DNA from: Phycisphaerae bacterium
GTDB lineage: Bacteria > Planctomycetota > Phycisphaerae > UBA1845 > Fen-1342
Direction of reading: 5' to 3'
Assembly (NCBI GenBank): GCA_017999985.1
Contig: JAGNKU010000003.1
Span: 1 to 64,000, forward strand
DNA: 64,000 nucleotides
Each line of letters opens with the position of its first letter. Positions within the stretch are counted from its first letter, which is position 1. The translations under genes were made by a program, and so were the position numbers. Shown here one piece after another: positions 48,528 through 55,661 of this stretch. Under the pieces are notes generated by a model that did not search any database, was not told the DNA's origin, and saw only the letters and a list, made by a program, of their open reading frames with translations.

Positions 48528-49223
48528 GTGGGTGAACCCGCGGCCACCACCGAGCCGGCAGCGCGCGATGGCCGTCTGCGCGCGATCGTAGTGCCGCTGG
48601 TGCTGCTGGCGCTGGCGGCCGTGCTCGTCGCGGACCCGTGGCGCTTCGGCGACCCGGTGCCGCCACCGACGGTTGTGCCGGCGTGGGCGATTGACCCGAC
48701 GCCGGTGCGGCAGCCGAAACTCAAGGCCGAGATTCAACTTGCCGGCTTCACGTATCGCTGCAGCGATTGCCACCGGTTGTTCACCTCGCCGCCGGAAACG
48801 ACGCGCCCGTTGACGCAACATCGCGACATTGTCCTGAAGCACGGCATCAACACGCGCTGCTTCAACTGTCACCATCCGACGAATCGGGATACGTACGTGG
48901 ATGACTGGGGCCGAGAGATCCCGGCGGACCAGCCGCAACTGCTCTGCGCCAAGTGTCATGGGCCGGTGTATCGCGACTGGCTGAAAGGGGCCCACGGGCG
49001 GACAAACGGTTACTGGGACGAGCAGCGCGGCGCGCAGAGGCGGCTCAAGTGCATCCAGTGCCACGACCCACACCAGCCGCCGTTCCCGCCCATGCATCCG
49101 GCCCCGCCGCCGAACACGCTCCGGATGGGTGAGCAGCGCTTCCCGGAGGAGCACCCGGCGACCGATCCACTGCGCATCTACCGGCGGTCCGAGGCTGGGC
49201 ACGCAAGCCCGGAGGAGGAGTGA
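48528..49223 (+). CDS. membrane-anchored tetrahaem cytochrome c
   Basis: The protein has 231 aa and starts at GTG. There is one N-terminal TM (about 18-36) and four CxxCH haem sites at Cys78, Cys111, Cys140 and Cys175. It has no NapC/NrfH-type core that I can see. It is the first gene of a four-gene operon with tight overlaps and probably shuttles electrons from the NrfCD-like pair to the octahaem enzyme. Confidence 0.9.
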   Translation: MGEPAATTEPAARDGRLRAIVVPLVLLALAAVLVADPWRFGDPVPPPTVVPAWAIDPTPVRQPKLKAEIQLAGFTYRCSDCHRLFTSPPETTRPLTQHRDIVLKHGINTRCFNCHHPTNRDTYVDDWGREIPADQPQLLCAKCHGPVYRDWLKGAHGRTNGYWDEQRGAQRRLKCIQCHDPHQPPFPPMHPAPPPNTLRMGEQRFPEEHPATDPLRIYRRSEAGHASPEEE

Positions 49224-50224
49224 TGGACCCGTCCCGGCCGGATCCCGGCCCTGCGACGCCCGGACTGACCCGCCGCGGTTTCCTGCGCAAAGGCGCCGCG
49301 ACGGTTGCGGGGGCGTCCGCGCTGGCGGCGGCACTCTCGCCCCTGAAGGACCTCGCGCCGGGCGATCGGCCGACGCTGGCGCAGCTCCTGCAACGGCACT
49401 ACAAGGAGATGACGCCCGAAGAGAAGCGGGCGGTGCTGGAGCGTGTCACGCACGAGGTTGCGCAGCGTTACCAGGTGACGCCCCGGGTGAGTGATCCGCC
49501 GCCGCTGGACGGGGTGGAATACGTCTACGCCCTGAACCTCAGCCGCTGCATCGGCTGCCGCAAGTGCGTGCACGCGTGCGTCCGCGAGAACAACCAGTCG
49601 CGGGCACCCGAAATTCAGTACATCCGGGTGCTGAAGATGGAGAAAGGCAGTATCGACGTCGAGACGTCGGACCATCATTACGACCCGCCGATCGTGCCGG
49701 AGCACGACAGCTACTACATGCCGGTGCAATGCCACCAGTGCAAGAAGCCGCCGTGCGTGAAGGCCTGCCCGGTCGAGGCGACGTGGCAGGAGCCGGACGG
49801 CATCACGGTGATCGATTACGACTGGTGCATCGGATGCCGCTACTGCGAGGCGGCGTGCCCGTACTGGGCGCGGCGGTTCAACTTTGCGGAGCCGCAGGTG
49901 CCGGCCGACGAACTCAACCCGGACATGGCGTATCTCTCGAACCGCCCGCGCGCGAAGGGCGTGATGGAGAAGTGCACGTACTGCCTCCATCGCACGCGCG
50001 TCGGGCGCATGCCGGCGTGCGTGGAGGTCTGTCCGACGGGCTCGCGGAAGTTCGGCAACGTGCTCGACCCGGAGAGCGAGGTCGCCTACATCCTGCGGCA
50101 GAAGCGCGTGTACGTCCTGAAGGAAGAGGTCGGCACGCTGCCGCGCTTCTTCTACTACTTCGACGAGCGCGGCAGCCGCTATCACGAGCCGATCAGCCCG
50201 GCCGAGCCGGGAGGTGGGGCGTGA
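49223..50224 (+). CDS. NrfC-like periplasmic ferredoxin, four [4Fe-4S] clusters
   Basis: The protein has 333 aa. A twin-arginine signal (TRRGFLRKGA, residues 16-25) sends it to the periplasm. Four cysteine groups (CIGCRKCVHAC; CHQCKKPPCVKACP; CIGCRYCEAACP; CTYCLHRTRVGRMPACVEVC) match the PsrB/NrfC/DsrO pattern. The start ATG at 49223 overlaps the previous stop and follows GGAGGAGG. It pairs with the NrfD-like gene that overlaps its end (GTGA). Confidence 0.94.
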   Translation: MDPSRPDPGPATPGLTRRGFLRKGAATVAGASALAAALSPLKDLAPGDRPTLAQLLQRHYKEMTPEEKRAVLERVTHEVAQRYQVTPRVSDPPPLDGVEYVYALNLSRCIGCRKCVHACVRENNQSRAPEIQYIRVLKMEKGSIDVETSDHHYDPPIVPEHDSYYMPVQCHQCKKPPCVKACPVEATWQEPDGITVIDYDWCIGCRYCEAACPYWARRFNFAEPQVPADELNPDMAYLSNRPRAKGVMEKCTYCLHRTRVGRMPACVEVCPTGSRKFGNVLDPESEVAYILRQKRVYVLKEEVGTLPRFFYYFDERGSRYHEPISPAEPGGGA

Positions 50225-51438
50225 AGCGCTACTGCACGTTCTTGTGGGAGTGCGTCCGCCTCAGCTTCGTTGGCGATTGGCGCTACCACACCTGGATGAC
50301 GGTCCTGACGGTCGTCACGCTGCTGGGCGTGTATGCCTACTGCCAGCAGCTCGTGCAGGGCCTGGTGACCACTGGCATGACCGACCAGGTCTCGTGGGGC
50401 TTGTACATCGCGAACTTCACCTATCTCGTCGGTCTCGCGGCGGCGGCGGCGATGCTGGTGATTCCGGTCTATGTGTACCGCAACATGCACCTGCACGACG
50501 TGGTCATCTTCGGCGAGCTGCTCGCCGTCGCGGTGATCATCATGTGCCTGCTGTTCGTGACGGTGGACCTCGGCCGGCCGGACCGGGCGGCGCACCTGCT
50601 GCTGCGCTTCAACTTCCCGATCTCGATGCTGACGTGGGACGTGATCGCGCTGAACGGCTACCTGCTGCTGAACCTGCACATTTGTGGCTATCTGCTGTAT
50701 TCCGCGTATTGCGGCCGCAAGCCGTCGCCGGTCTTCTACGTGCCCTTCGTGTTCATCGCGATCGTCTGGGCCGTGAGCATTCATACGGTGACCGCGTTCC
50801 TGTACGTCGGTCTCGGCGGGCGGCCGTTCTGGAACTCGGCCATCATTGCCCCGCGCTTCCTGGCCAGCGCGTTCGCCGCCGGGCCGGCGTTCATCATCCT
50901 GACGCTGCAGGTCGTCCGGCGGTTCACGCGGCACCGCGTCACCGACGACGCGCTGTTCACGCTGCGCCGGATCGTGCAGGTCGCGATGATCATCAACTTT
51001 TTCCTGCTGGGCTGCGAGGTGTTCACGGAGTTTTACGCGGACACCGCGCACCTGGCATCGTCGCGCTACCTGTACTTCGGGCTGCACGGCCGCCACGCGC
51101 TGGTGCCGTGGATCTGGACGGCGATCGCGTTCAACCTGGTCGCGACGATCCTGCTGGTGCTGCCGGCGTCGCGGGCCCTGCGTTTTCTGAACACCGCCTG
51201 TGTGCTGGCCATCGTCGGCATCTGGATCGAGAAGGGCATGGGGCTGATCGTGCCGGCGTTCATTCCGACGCAGCTCGGCGAGATCGTGGAGTACACGCCG
51301 ACGCTGCGCGAGGTGTTGGTCTGCCTGGGCATCTGGGCCTTCGGCCTGCTGCTCTACACGATCTTCGTCCGTATCTCCGTGCCGGTGCTGGCCGGCGATC
51401 TGACTTACGCGAAACGCTACGGAGTCCAACCGTCATGA
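50221..51438 (+). CDS. NrfD/PsrC-like quinol-oxidising membrane protein
   Basis: The 405-aa protein starts at GTG. About ten TM helices span residues 22-395. The family resembles HybB/NrfD (WGLYIANFTYLVGLAAAAAMLVI; LLLRFNFPISMLTWDVIALNGYLLLNL; ALVPWIWTAIAFN). It exchanges electrons between the quinone pool and the NrfC-like partner. It overlaps both neighbours, so the four products are made together. Confidence 0.94.
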   Translation: MKRYCTFLWECVRLSFVGDWRYHTWMTVLTVVTLLGVYAYCQQLVQGLVTTGMTDQVSWGLYIANFTYLVGLAAAAAMLVIPVYVYRNMHLHDVVIFGELLAVAVIIMCLLFVTVDLGRPDRAAHLLLRFNFPISMLTWDVIALNGYLLLNLHICGYLLYSAYCGRKPSPVFYVPFVFIAIVWAVSIHTVTAFLYVGLGGRPFWNSAIIAPRFLASAFAAGPAFIILTLQVVRRFTRHRVTDDALFTLRRIVQVAMIINFFLLGCEVFTEFYADTAHLASSRYLYFGLHGRHALVPWIWTAIAFNLVATILLVLPASRALRFLNTACVLAIVGIWIEKGMGLIVPAFIPTQLGEIVEYTPTLREVLVCLGIWAFGLLLYTIFVRISVPVLAGDLTYAKRYGVQPS

Positions 51439-52871
51439 ACCGCAATGTCCTCGGCATCATCGCCACCGCATGCGGGGCCGTCGCGGCCACCGCGCAGACC
51501 TGGGGCCTGACCGAGCTGTCCGCGGAGAGCAAGGCCTGCATCGAGTGCCACAAGAAAGACAGCACGGCCGTGTACCAGCAATGGGGCACGAGCAAGCACT
51601 ACCGCGCCAACATCGGCTGCTACGAATGCCACGCCGCGCAGGAAGGCGAGCCCGATGCCTTCAAGCATGAGGGCCAGTGGATCGCCACGATCGTCTCGCC
51701 GAAGGACTGCGCCCGCTGCCACGCGCGCGAGGCGCAGGAATTCAGCGGCTCCCACCATTCGAAGGGAGCGCGCATCCTGGGCTCGCTCGACAACACGCTG
51801 GCCGAGGTCGTCGAGGGTAACCGCGGCATGATCACGCCCGCGTTCCAGAACGGCGTCGCGGCGTCGGCCGTGCTTGGCTGCTGGCAATGCCACGGCACGG
51901 AGATCAAGGTGCTGCCCGGCGGCAAGCTCGACCCCGCGACCTGGCCGAACACCGGGATCGGCCGGATCAATCCGGACGGCTCGGAGGGCTCGTGCTCGGC
52001 GTGTCACAGCCGGCACGCGTTTTCGGCGGAGCAGGCCCGCAACCCGGATAACTGCGGCAAGTGCCACATGGGGCCGGACCATCCGCAGATGGAGATCTAC
52101 TACGAGTCGAAGCACGGCATCGCGTTTCGCGCGCACAAAGATAAGCTGAACCTGGCCTCGCCGAAGTGGATCGTGGGCGAGGACTACAGCCTGGCCCCGA
52201 CCTGCGCGACATGCCACATGAGTGCGACGAAGAACCAGCCGGTATCGCACGACGTCGGTCTGCGAATCAGTTGGAACAACCGGCCGGCGCTCTCGATCCG
52301 CCCGGAGATCAGCGACAAGAAGATGGGGCTGCCGGGCGCGGAGGTCGGCTGGGAGAAGCGTCGCGCGGCAATGAAGGACGTGTGCCTCAATTGTCACGCG
52401 AACCAGTGGGTCGACAACTTCTACGTGCAGTACGACAGCTTGATCGAGCTATACCACGCAAAGTTCGCGCAACCAGGCCTGGAACTGTACACGCTGGCCA
52501 AGCCGCTGCTGCGGCCGGTGGAGTTCTCCAACAAGATCGATTTCACGTGGTATGAAATCTGGCACCACGAGGGCCGGCGGGCGCGGCACGGGGCGTCGAT
52601 GATGGGGCCGGACTACACGCACTGGCACGGCACCTACGAGGTCGCCAAGCACTTCTATTCCGAGTACGTGCCCGAGCTCGAAGAACTGGTGCACGCGGGG
52701 AAGGCGTCCGGCGTGCCGGAGAAAACCGCCGCGGCGGAGGCGCTGGGCAAGAAGCTGGAAGAGGTGCTCAACAGCGCCAACCACCAGTGGTACCTGAACA
52801 AGCTCGATCCGGCGGAGCAAGCCCGGCGCCAGCAGCAGATGGAGGAATTCAAGAAGCGCTACGGGCAGTAG
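51435..52871 (+). CDS. octahaem cytochrome c, hydroxylamine oxidoreductase family
   Basis: The 478-aa protein has an N-terminal signal segment (residues 1-22). Eight CxxCH sites occur at Cys35, 62, 92, 149, 187, 207, 257 and 317; the fourth (CWQCH) would be the catalytic haem in this family. A conserved GPDYTHWHG motif near residues 391-399 contains Tyr394, a candidate equivalent of the Tyr that crosslinks to P460 haem in true HAO, which I cannot verify. There is no C-terminal membrane anchor. The NrfCD-like partners and FNR-type promoter favour reduction of nitrite or hydroxylamine over ammonia-oxidiser HAO activity. Confidence 0.9.
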   Translation: MNRNVLGIIATACGAVAATAQTWGLTELSAESKACIECHKKDSTAVYQQWGTSKHYRANIGCYECHAAQEGEPDAFKHEGQWIATIVSPKDCARCHAREAQEFSGSHHSKGARILGSLDNTLAEVVEGNRGMITPAFQNGVAASAVLGCWQCHGTEIKVLPGGKLDPATWPNTGIGRINPDGSEGSCSACHSRHAFSAEQARNPDNCGKCHMGPDHPQMEIYYESKHGIAFRAHKDKLNLASPKWIVGEDYSLAPTCATCHMSATKNQPVSHDVGLRISWNNRPALSIRPEISDKKMGLPGAEVGWEKRRAAMKDVCLNCHANQWVDNFYVQYDSLIELYHAKFAQPGLELYTLAKPLLRPVEFSNKIDFTWYEIWHHEGRRARHGASMMGPDYTHWHGTYEVAKHFYSEYVPELEELVHAGKASGVPEKTAAAEALGKKLEEVLNSANHQWYLNKLDPAEQARRQQQMEEFKKRYGQ

Positions 52872-52977: not shown

Positions 52978-54075
52978 CTACGGCTGGGACGTCAGCAGGT
53001 TGACGAACGGATTGATATCCTGGAAGCCAACGCTGCCGTCTTCGTTGATGTCGCAGTTGCTGTGGGGGCAATCCGGAAAATCCGCGATGTATTGCCACCA
53101 GTTGGTCAGGGCGAGCACGAACGGGTTAATATCCCGGAAGTTCACTTCGCCATCGCAGTTGGAATCACCGCGCAGCGTCTCGCACTCGTCCGGTATGCCG
53201 TTGCTGTTGGTGTCACGGGACACGCCGGAGGAGATGTCACACTCGTCCGGCAGGTCGTTCAGATTGCAGTCCGCGGAGTTGCCGGAGGAGAGGTCCTCTG
53301 CGTCCGGGACGCCGTTGAAGTTGCAGTCCGGGCCGAACGGCCAGCTCAGGACGGCGGCGTTGAAGATCTCGGCCGGGGCGGAGCTGTTGGGGGTCTGTGC
53401 CCAGGCGACGATCTTGATGTTGGCCTGGTTGGCCCAGCTCGTGGTGTCGAAAGTGATGTTGCGCGCGACCATCTGGCACTCGCCGGGGGCGAGCGTCATG
53501 TCCTGGGAGGTCGCCGCCTGCCGGAAGCACCAGCGCGAGTACGTGGGTGAACTCGGGTAGTGGTCCAGCACCGCTGCGATCCAGACGCGCATGTTGTGGC
53601 TGGCGCCGGGCTCGACGCAGACGTTGGCGCGGATGGTGAAGGTCGAGCCCATCGACTGGACACCCGTGACCGTGATCCGGACGTTGGTCGCCACGGCGCG
53701 CCGCTGGTTGTACTTGCCGGTGTACGCGGTGAGCGCGCCCTGGTAACTGCCGGCGCCGACCACCGACGTGATGCCGTCGAACCAGGCGGTGGGCGTCCCG
53801 GTCACGTTGTAGAAGTTGTCCCGCGTGTTGCCCCACCCGGTCGCATACGAATCGCCGATGTGGATTTGCAGCAAGGCCAAGTGCGGGGCGATGGCGGGGT
53901 CATTGAGCATTGTGTTCAACGCCTGACCGGCGTAAGTGCAGTAGCTTCAGGTGACGCTCGTGAATTCTTCGACGAGCACCACCCGATCTGCCGCTTGGGC
54001 CGGTGCGAGGCCGAGCGCGAACGCGCCCAGCAGGGGCAGCAACCACGCACTGCGTACCAGACGTCCACTGTCCAT
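52978..54075 (-). CDS. candidate secreted selenoprotein: thioredoxin-fold (Omp28-like) with U-S-Y-C motif and dockerin-like tail
   Basis: It reads as one 365-residue protein if the TGA at 53949-53947 (codon 43) is selenocysteine. The ATG at 54075 follows AAGGAG. A signal peptide (residues 8-29) leads to VVLVEEFTSVT-U-SYC-TYAGQAL. The neighbour at 54555 has EEFTSTS-C-GYC-VYAGLAL at the same place, so TGA replaces the first Cys of the CxxC redox motif. After it 322 codons stay open and homologous (DSYATGW, GTPTAWFDG). Two Ca-loop repeats (NGVPDAEDL, NGIPDECE) and a dockerin-like end with two INPFV motifs follow. A hairpin fit for SECIS lies just after TGA. The alternative is a nonsense mutation; the location and hairpin argue against it. 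Confidence 0.72.
53919..53949 (-). promoter_or_regulatory. candidate bacterial SECIS: TGA plus downstream hairpin
   Basis: The in-frame TGA (53949-53947) is followed after 18 nt by a loop starting GGU. The hairpin is ACGCC-GGUCA-GGCGU (stem 53933-53929 with 53923-53919, loop 53928-53924), a perfect 5-bp GC-rich stem. In E. coli fdhF the loop GGU also starts 18 nt after UGA. The Cys paralogue keeps the codons but not the pairing (its 3' arm reads GGCAC). The lower stem is weak (U-U mismatch, then one U-G). Confidence 0.6.
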
Positions 54076-54554
54076 GCGCGACTCCTTTGTTTAGAGATGA
54101 TTCCGTGGGGACCCAATGGTACCGCTGTCAATTGAGCAGCCCGGGCGGTCCAGCATCACGGGCCGTTGCACACCTGTTGTGTGGATACACATATCGCAAT
54201 ATCCCGTACGTGTCACCAACTTGACCGTTGCAAGGCACACCGGGTGACGCCCTCCCCGCTGCGACGGGTCCGCAAGGCAGAAGGTGGCGCCGCTCGTCGT
54301 CCCCTCTGCGGGGCACGGCTTGTTCATTGTAACGCAGGCCCCTAGCCGTCCGATAGCGAAACTTTCGCGATCTCTGTGGCCTGCGCGGATTTCGTCGCCC
54401 AGGCAGTCCGCCGCCGGCTGCCGCCAATCGAGTGATTCAACGCGCACAATGCCCCCGGGCGTGCACGCATAAGCCATGCTCACCCCGCCGGTTATCCGCC
54501 TGCGCCGCTCCCGGAGCGACGCGCCCGGCTCCCTCCCGGGCTCGTCGCACTCGT
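54076..54554. other. intergenic region between the Sec and Cys paralogues
   Basis: About 479 bp on the path from the Cys copy to the Sec copy. A TTGACA on the minus strand (54131-54126) may be the -35 of the Sec gene, without a clear -10. Short open frames here have no ribosome binding site or family signal. I see no tRNA-like fold. Confidence 0.4.
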
Positions 54555-55661
54555 TTACTGGCTCGTGAGCAGCACCACGAACGGGTTGATGTCGGCAAAC
54601 GTCACGCCGCCGTCGCGATTGATGTCGCCGTTGCCGGTTGGGCAATCGGGGAACGCCGCGTGCCATTCCGTCCAGTTGGACACCAGGAGCACGAACGGGT
54701 TGATGTCGCGGAAGTTGAGGATGCCGTCACAGTTGGCGTCGCCGACGACAATCTCACACTCGTCCGGCACGCCGTTGGTGTTTGTATCTACCGAACTGCC
54801 GCCGGCGATGTCGCACTCGTCCGGGACGTGGTTTGCATTGCAGTCCTGCGAGTCGCCGGAATTGAGATCCTCGTCATCCGGGCGGCCGTTGAAGTTGCAG
54901 TCGGCAGGGAAGGGCCACGGCAGCACCTTGGTCTGGTAGATTTCGGCCGGGTTCGACGTGGAGCTGTAGCTTTGGGGCTCCTGGGCCCAGACGATGAAGC
55001 GGATGTCGTTTTGGTTGGCCCAGCTCGTGCTGTCGAACGTGAAATTGCGCGCCACGGTCTGGCAGGTGCCCGGGGTGAGGGCCACGTCCTGGTAGGTGGC
55101 GGCCTGCTTGAAGCCGTTCCGCGAGTAGGCCGGTGAGGTCGGCCAGTTGTCCAAGACCTGCACCATGTAGACGCGGACGGTCTTGGCGGTCCCGCCAGCT
55201 TCCAAACACACCCGCGCCCGCAACGTGTACGTCTGGCCGCTGACCGGCACGCCGGTCGCGGTGATGGTCACGTCGGTCGGTACGGCCTTACGGGCGTTGA
55301 ACTGGCTCAGATACCAGTTGTATTGCTGTTGCGTGTTGGTGTAGGCCCCGGCGCACTGCAGGGTGCCGTCGAACCAGGCGACCGGCGTGCCGGATACACC
55401 GTAGAAGCTGGCGCGCGAGGTTGCCCAGGTGGTCGCGTACGAATCATTAATGTGGTACTGCACGAGCGTGAAGGTGTCGGGGAACTCGTCGAGGAGCATG
55501 TCCAGTGCCAGGCCGGCGTACACACAGTACCCGCAACTCGTACTCGTGAATTCCTCGGCGATGACGACCCGATCCGCTGCCCGTGCCGGCTGCGCGACCA
55601 GGCCCAACGTAGTCAAGGCGACCAGGATACACGCCCCCCGCCAGCTTCTTCCGCTCTCCAT
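54555..55661 (-). CDS. secreted thioredoxin-fold (Omp28-like) protein with CGYC motif and dockerin-like tail
   Basis: The 368-aa protein starts at ATG 55661 with CAGGAG upstream. The signal peptide ends near ARA-ADR (about residue 29). The redox site is EEFTSTSCGYCVYAG (Cys about 42 and 45), followed by LVQYHINDSYATTWATSR and GTPVAWFDGT, as in Omp28-related thioredoxin-fold proteins. Then come a beta-sandwich-like region, Ca-loop repeats (NGRPDDEDL, NGVPDECE) and a dockerin-like end (NFRDINPFVLLV, FADINPFVVLL). It is the cysteine homologue of the candidate selenoprotein downstream. The role is probably extracytoplasmic thiol redox chemistry; partners are unknown. Confidence 0.88.
   Translation of the reverse strand: MESGRSWRGACILVALTTLGLVAQPARAADRVVIAEEFTSTSCGYCVYAGLALDMLLDEFPDTFTLVQYHINDSYATTWATSRASFYGVSGTPVAWFDGTLQCAGAYTNTQQQYNWYLSQFNARKAVPTDVTITATGVPVSGQTYTLRARVCLEAGGTAKTVRVYMVQVLDNWPTSPAYSRNGFKQAATYQDVALTPGTCQTVARNFTFDSTSWANQNDIRFIVWAQEPQSYSSTSNPAEIYQTKVLPWPFPADCNFNGRPDDEDLNSGDSQDCNANHVPDECDIAGGSSVDTNTNGVPDECEIVVGDANCDGILNFRDINPFVLLVSNWTEWHAAFPDCPTGNGDINRDGGVTFADINPFVVLLTSQ

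Follow-up and report, generated by a model that had tools for sequence, protein, structure and literature searches.

A selenocysteine-encoding gene for a thioredoxin/Omp28-like protein in a Phycisphaerae-type planctomycete

Selenoproteins of the GOS_C type were first reported in 2008 by Zhang and Gladyshev, with 74 selenocysteine (Sec) sequences, a thioredoxin-like fold and a SECIS (PMC2398784). In an inventory of 119 families from 2026, the profile NF045500 is entered as 'Hypothetical protein GOS_C', with the motif UxxC (PMC13188914). HBP35, a Cys protein of P. gingivalis, reduces insulin in a thioredoxin activity that requires C48 and C51; it is also a haemin-binding protein that promotes the use of haem (PMC2907840). 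We found no literature naming Omp28 together with selenoproteins.

The window, a DNA stretch of 64,000 nucleotides, comes from a Phycisphaerae-type planctomycete with a genome of 5.23 Mb in 31 contigs, 98.65% complete. It carries a gene that an earlier note, made from the sequence, had read as a selenoprotein of an architecture not previously described; that novelty is not upheld, as NF045500 is GOS_C, a UxxC family known since 2008 (PMC13188914, PMC2398784). Our overall explanation of the locus, to which we assign a probability of about 0.85, is an exported two-domain thioredoxin/Omp28-like protein with Sec as the nucleophilic active-site residue.

The UGA codon and its decoding

The minus-strand frame 54075..52978 opens with ATG, runs for 42 codons to a TGA (53949-53947) and continues for 322 sense codons to a TAG (Table 1). 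These are the coordinates and counts of the earlier note, and the Shine-Dalgarno-like AAAGGAG is present. Read by eye, the N-terminus resembles a signal peptide that ends AQA-A and has no lipobox Cys in the predicted signal region, in keeping with the export proposed before. The adjacent paralogue places the TGC of its Cys43 exactly opposite the TGA, again as the note had it.

Table 1. Features of the Sec gene and its neighbouring paralogue
Feature	Position	Strand	Basis or remark
Sec-containing Omp28/thioredoxin-like gene	52978..54075	(-)	365 aa with U43
Shine-Dalgarno-like AAAGGAG	54082..54088	(-)	sequence
Predicted Sec-type signal peptide (MDSGRLVRSAWLLPLLGAFALGLAPAQA-A)	53989..54075	(-)	from sequence
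Thioredoxin-fold domain, aa 31-129	53689..53985	(-)	AlphaFold2, structure and profile matches
TGA, selenocysteine U43, position 1 of UxxC	53947..53949	(-)	homologue codon comparison
TGC, resolving Cys46 of U-S-Y-C	53938..53940	(-)	sequence and homologues
SECIS hairpin, stem ACGCC/GGCGU, loop GGUCA (53928-53924)	53919..53933	(-)	comparative analysis
Omp28/HBP35-type beta domain, aa 130-249	53329..53688	(-)	HBP35 5y1a, Omp28 2r2c
DCNxNGxPD repeats, thrombospondin type 3 Ca-binding-like, aa 250-299	53179..53328	(-)	sequence
Dockerin-like tail, aa 303-365	52981..53169	(-)	sequence, Pfam
Tandem Cys paralogue (CGYC)	54555..55661	(-)	57% identical to the window gene over whole length

The window protein was searched against 200 related genomes, where many homologues carry exactly one TGA, and 86 distinct homologous domains were fetched and aligned. 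The codon aligned to U43 is TGA in 59 domains and TGC or TGT in 24; 23 of the latter are true Cys homologues, the remaining one (L066) having a TGA three codons further on. AGC, GGC and TAT (Ser, Gly and Tyr) occur in one domain each. The earlier note asked whether this position alternates only between TGA and Cys: the 59 TGA and 23 Cys domains do so, the three other residues and the shifted TGA do not. TAA and TAG, which the same note would have taken as evidence against Sec, are found at this codon in none of the 86 domains, which also lack any second in-frame stop. The second Cys of UxxC is retained in 57 of the 59 TGA domains. TGA homologues occur in 27 of the 200 genomes and SelA was detected in 23 of those 27; the other four (G018, G021, G024 and G113) are incomplete assemblies (62-88%). 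Comparison of the window protein with genome contigs gave three Phycisphaerae records, all MAGs, two of which carry TGA and the third TGC.

The domains in which Tyr, Gly or Ser takes the Sec/Cys position are L083, L089 (3882-4586(+)) and L096; in the tree described below, L096 has both Cys and Sec sisters beside it. A TGA beside an NF045500 match in genome G132 (L136) was rejected as a Sec site, because it immediately precedes the initiator Met of a Cys homologue.

Is the organism able to use such a codon? The genome search that the earlier note had proposed retrieves all four factors: SelA (526.5 bits for two stretches together), SelB (325.6 bits together), SelD (360 bits; G000:C12:103672-104595(-), L018) and tRNA-Sec (68.8 bits, with a UCA anticodon according to ARAGORN). 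The organism is therefore equipped to make and insert Sec. SelD is itself a selenoprotein, with one in-frame TGA in YASCGGU-AGKL, the canonical SCGGU Sec site. The two model-matching stretches of SelA (G000:C6:150285-151697(+), L022/L023) lie some 27 residues apart, a split shared by many genomes of the same family that points to a small lineage-specific insertion.

A hairpin common to the Sec genes occupies nucleotides 17-31, counting from the U of UGA, with a GGUNN loop at nucleotides 22-26; the GGU loop codon of the window gene lies at U+7. Pairing in this fixed register was assessed in 55 ungapped Sec genes and 19 Cys genes, with 1000 synonymous-codon randomisations as the control. Of the 55 Sec genes, 39 form the complete five-pair stem, as against 2 of the 19 Cys genes, while the randomised sets contain on average 3.8 and at most 12 such genes. 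Eleven further Sec genes form four pairs; five form none or one, and several of these fold a good hairpin shifted by one. The stem covaries on both sides (C21-G27 and G21-C27; C18-G30 and G18-C30), the compensatory pair types being C-G 16/G-C 30 and C-G 45/G-C 5. For the Gly of the loop, 52 of 55 Sec genes and 5 of 19 Cys genes use GGT (p=1.4e-8), although GGT is a minority codon elsewhere in the same genes, at 121 of 717 other glycines. When the register is allowed to vary, 46 of 59 Sec genes and 3 of 23 Cys genes have a stem of 5 bp or more with a GGU loop (control maximum 8). The tandem Cys paralogue lacks the GGU-loop SECIS and uses GGC for this glycine. The minimum-free-energy fold of the 66 nucleotides around the UGA, computed on the single sequence, is another, longer hairpin with a z score of only -1.5; folding one sequence was thus uninformative, and the conserved hairpin emerged from the comparison of homologues. 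The GGU-loop hairpin is far above synonymous-codon expectation and largely missing in the Cys homologues.

Two explanations other than Sec bear on the TGA itself. It might be a nonsense mutation, TGC to TGA, in a decaying paralogue: an intact Cys paralogue adjoins the gene and one substitution suffices. A chance TGA is excluded, however, because 59 of the 86 homologues share the codon and none has TAA, TAG or a second stop; the codons 3' of the TGA are conserved as protein and the hairpin is under synonymous selection, all of which contradicts a pseudogene and leaves that reading with a negligible probability. Reassignment of TGA across the genome or lineage, for example to Trp or Gly, would fit its clear translation in these genes, but in the aligned domains TGA is confined to the Cys column, with a single instance three codons on, and never stands at a Trp or Gly position. 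With all four Sec factors and the hairpin present as well, we consider reassignment extremely improbable. Codon alternation, Sec machinery and SECIS together support the UxxC selenoprotein that had been claimed. Sec coding and the SECIS are demonstrated computationally, and it is virtually certain that UGA43 of the window gene codes selenocysteine.

Fold, tail and proposed function

The AlphaFold2 model, based on 58 homologues, has pLDDT values of about 91-99 over residues 31-250 and low confidence in the tail. The top PDB match is HBP35 (5y1a), with Z 23.2 and an rmsd of 2.7 Å over 217 residues; 2axo ranks second with Z 18.7. Thioredoxins match the first domain and the beta domain also aligns with Omp28 (2r2c, Z 8.8). 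A sequence profile independently retrieves thioredoxins (E=7e-7) and HBP35 (3e-5). Within the thioredoxin-fold domain, the segment TPTAW supplies an invariant proline, P95, at the thioredoxin cis-Pro position. The model thus confidently assigns the protein as thioredoxin plus Omp28-type beta domain, and the fold, demonstrated computationally, agrees with the thioredoxin fold and Omp28 kinship suggested earlier.

The repeats that follow resemble those matched by the NF045500 profile, which likewise covers DCNxNGxPD-type repeats; a Pfam TSP_3 match was obtained only in relatives of the window protein. The label 'dockerin-tailed' proved too strong. The tail is dockerin-like, its Dockerin type I (PF00404) score of 15.4 bits falling under the 22.9-bit Pfam cut-off, and cohesin PF00963 has no match in the window's genome, in a search that a divergent cohesin could escape. 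Tail-related copies in this genome number at least about 150. The tail motif NFxDINPFVxxL, seen in at least about 150 proteins with no cohesin match, is possibly a sorting or anchoring module in its own right.

We propose the following mechanism. The hairpin, with its loop starting 18 nucleotides past UGA43, would bring SelB and Sec-tRNA(Sec) to the ribosome; Sec would be inserted and the remaining 322 codons translated. After presumed export and cleavage of the signal, the U-x-x-C motif would alternate between a selenenylsulfide and a selenol/thiol state; the protein is probably a thiol/selenol oxidoreductase (reductase or isomerase) acting on extracytoplasmic substrates. The Ca-binding-type repeats and the dockerin-like tail may serve placement at the cell surface. 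Fold and motif make an exported thiol/selenol oxidoreductase a likely function; export itself, the redox chemistry and its direction, the substrate and the electron donor are aspects that we infer.

Paralogues and cytochrome-fused relatives

Besides the tandem copy, the window's genome has several further Cys paralogues and two further Sec paralogues, one with USTC (C16:108385) and one with UAYD (C2:108163; L075, 298-1008(+)), which lacks the resolving Cys. Another Sec paralogue, L095, has U-G-A-D and lacks it too. Given such paralogues and the Ser, Gly and Tyr homologues, the reaction may not be uniform across the family.

Parsimony on a tree of 84 domains, many of whose forks are weak, demands 18 changes for the Sec label, at least 9 of them forced by starred branches, and 16 for the Cys label, at least 8 forced in the same way. 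Sec copies repeatedly have Cys copies as neighbours. One lineage shows many Sec/Cys switches, of which well-supported branches force at least 8, and genomes that carry both kinds of copy next to each other offer a natural test of why Sec persists.

In one clade, which has about 20 domains (98% SH-aLRT), the full-length members measure some 800-870 residues; their Trx-Omp28 domain is followed by thrombospondin-3-like repeats and then by nine CxxCH motifs whose positions hardly vary. The nonahaem-fused proteins include Sec forms (L057, 1-2451(-); L068, 31-2547(-); L127, L131, L135 and L138) and Cys forms (L024, 1-2397(-), in the window's genome; L070, L133, L134 and L137). Pfam cytochrome c554 and paired CxxCH domains score above their cut-offs in all three fused proteins tested. 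The window protein itself contains no haem motif. That relatives carry this domain joined to nine-haem cytochromes suggests that its electrons may come from, or pass to, extracytoplasmic cytochromes; no other clue points as well to an electron partner. The window gene also lies tail to tail with a plus-strand respiratory module (48528-52871(+)), and this adjacency to Fe-S, NrfD and cytochrome genes is a weak clue of the same sort. The module comprises a haem protein, a DsrO/HybA-like Fe-S protein, NrfD and a multihaem cytochrome that weakly resembles the hydrazine dehydrogenase/HAO type.

These proteins form a widespread, little-studied selenoprotein group, expanded in the window's bacterial lineage and partly fused to nine-haem cytochromes. 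We see about an even chance that the window gene belongs to an undescribed, greatly expanded Phycisphaerae-type branch of extracytoplasmic Sec-thioredoxins, one clade of which, with its Sec-thioredoxin joined to a nonahaem c-type cytochrome, represents a novel redox enzyme class. If so, that clade would couple extracellular thiol chemistry to respiratory electron flow. The haem-fused relatives make electron delivery to surface thiols directly testable. Annotation that reads UGA as stop would shorten these genes; where UGA is treated only in that way, a large set of exported redox proteins has probably been missed or truncated in planctomycete genomes.

Relation to known families

How far does the likeness to described proteins account for the window gene? 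A true selenoprotein could still be mainly a ligand binder, for haem, metal or the capture of selenium or mercury, with a role in haem uptake like that of HBP35 and not as a disulfide oxidoreductase. The best structural match does bind haemin and support haem use, and the second Cys is missing in some Sec paralogues; however, UxxC and the Pro95 position are kept in most members, and HBP35 itself has a thioredoxin activity that needs both Cys residues (PMC2907840). We regard a predominantly ligand-binding role as unlikely. Less easily set aside, though still on the doubtful side, is the view that the gene is a plain member of the NF045500/GOS_C family with nothing distinctive. The NF045500 'Omp28-related selenoprotein' profile of 377 residues matches amino acids 26-359 over positions 34-373, extending across the C-terminal tail, and GOS_C was reported with UxxC and a Trx-like fold (PMC2398784). 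Against this, the match scores 47.9 bits under a cut-off of 200, and none of the 200 related genomes contains a match above that cut-off. The selenocysteine oxidoreductase that we favour can be set beside each of the known systems.

The E. coli fdhF SECIS likewise has a GGT/GGU apical-loop codon at U+7, but its stem differs and its protein is unrelated. DUF1223 (PF06764), of which we take 2axo to be a member, has the same overall fold and a weak Pfam match (E=0.0047), at 17.4 bits under a 30.7-bit cut-off. The Omp28 outer-membrane lipoprotein (NF033782) has an alignable beta domain and a weak sequence match around CxxC, but the window protein reaches only 22 of the 150 bits required and has a signal peptide free of a lipobox Cys. 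HBP35 shares both the thioredoxin and the beta domain over the 217 aligned residues, whereas its identity to the window protein is 12-13%, it has Cys in place of Sec and it is sorted via a different C-terminal domain. NF045500/GOS_C is alike in its Trx-like fold, UxxC, Sec/Cys alternation and SECIS-like element, with a profile that spans the Trx domain, beta domain and tail, and differs in the scores given above. Proteins of this kind are already known, as GOS_C, of which the window gene represents a divergent branch or subfamily with a dockerin-like tail.
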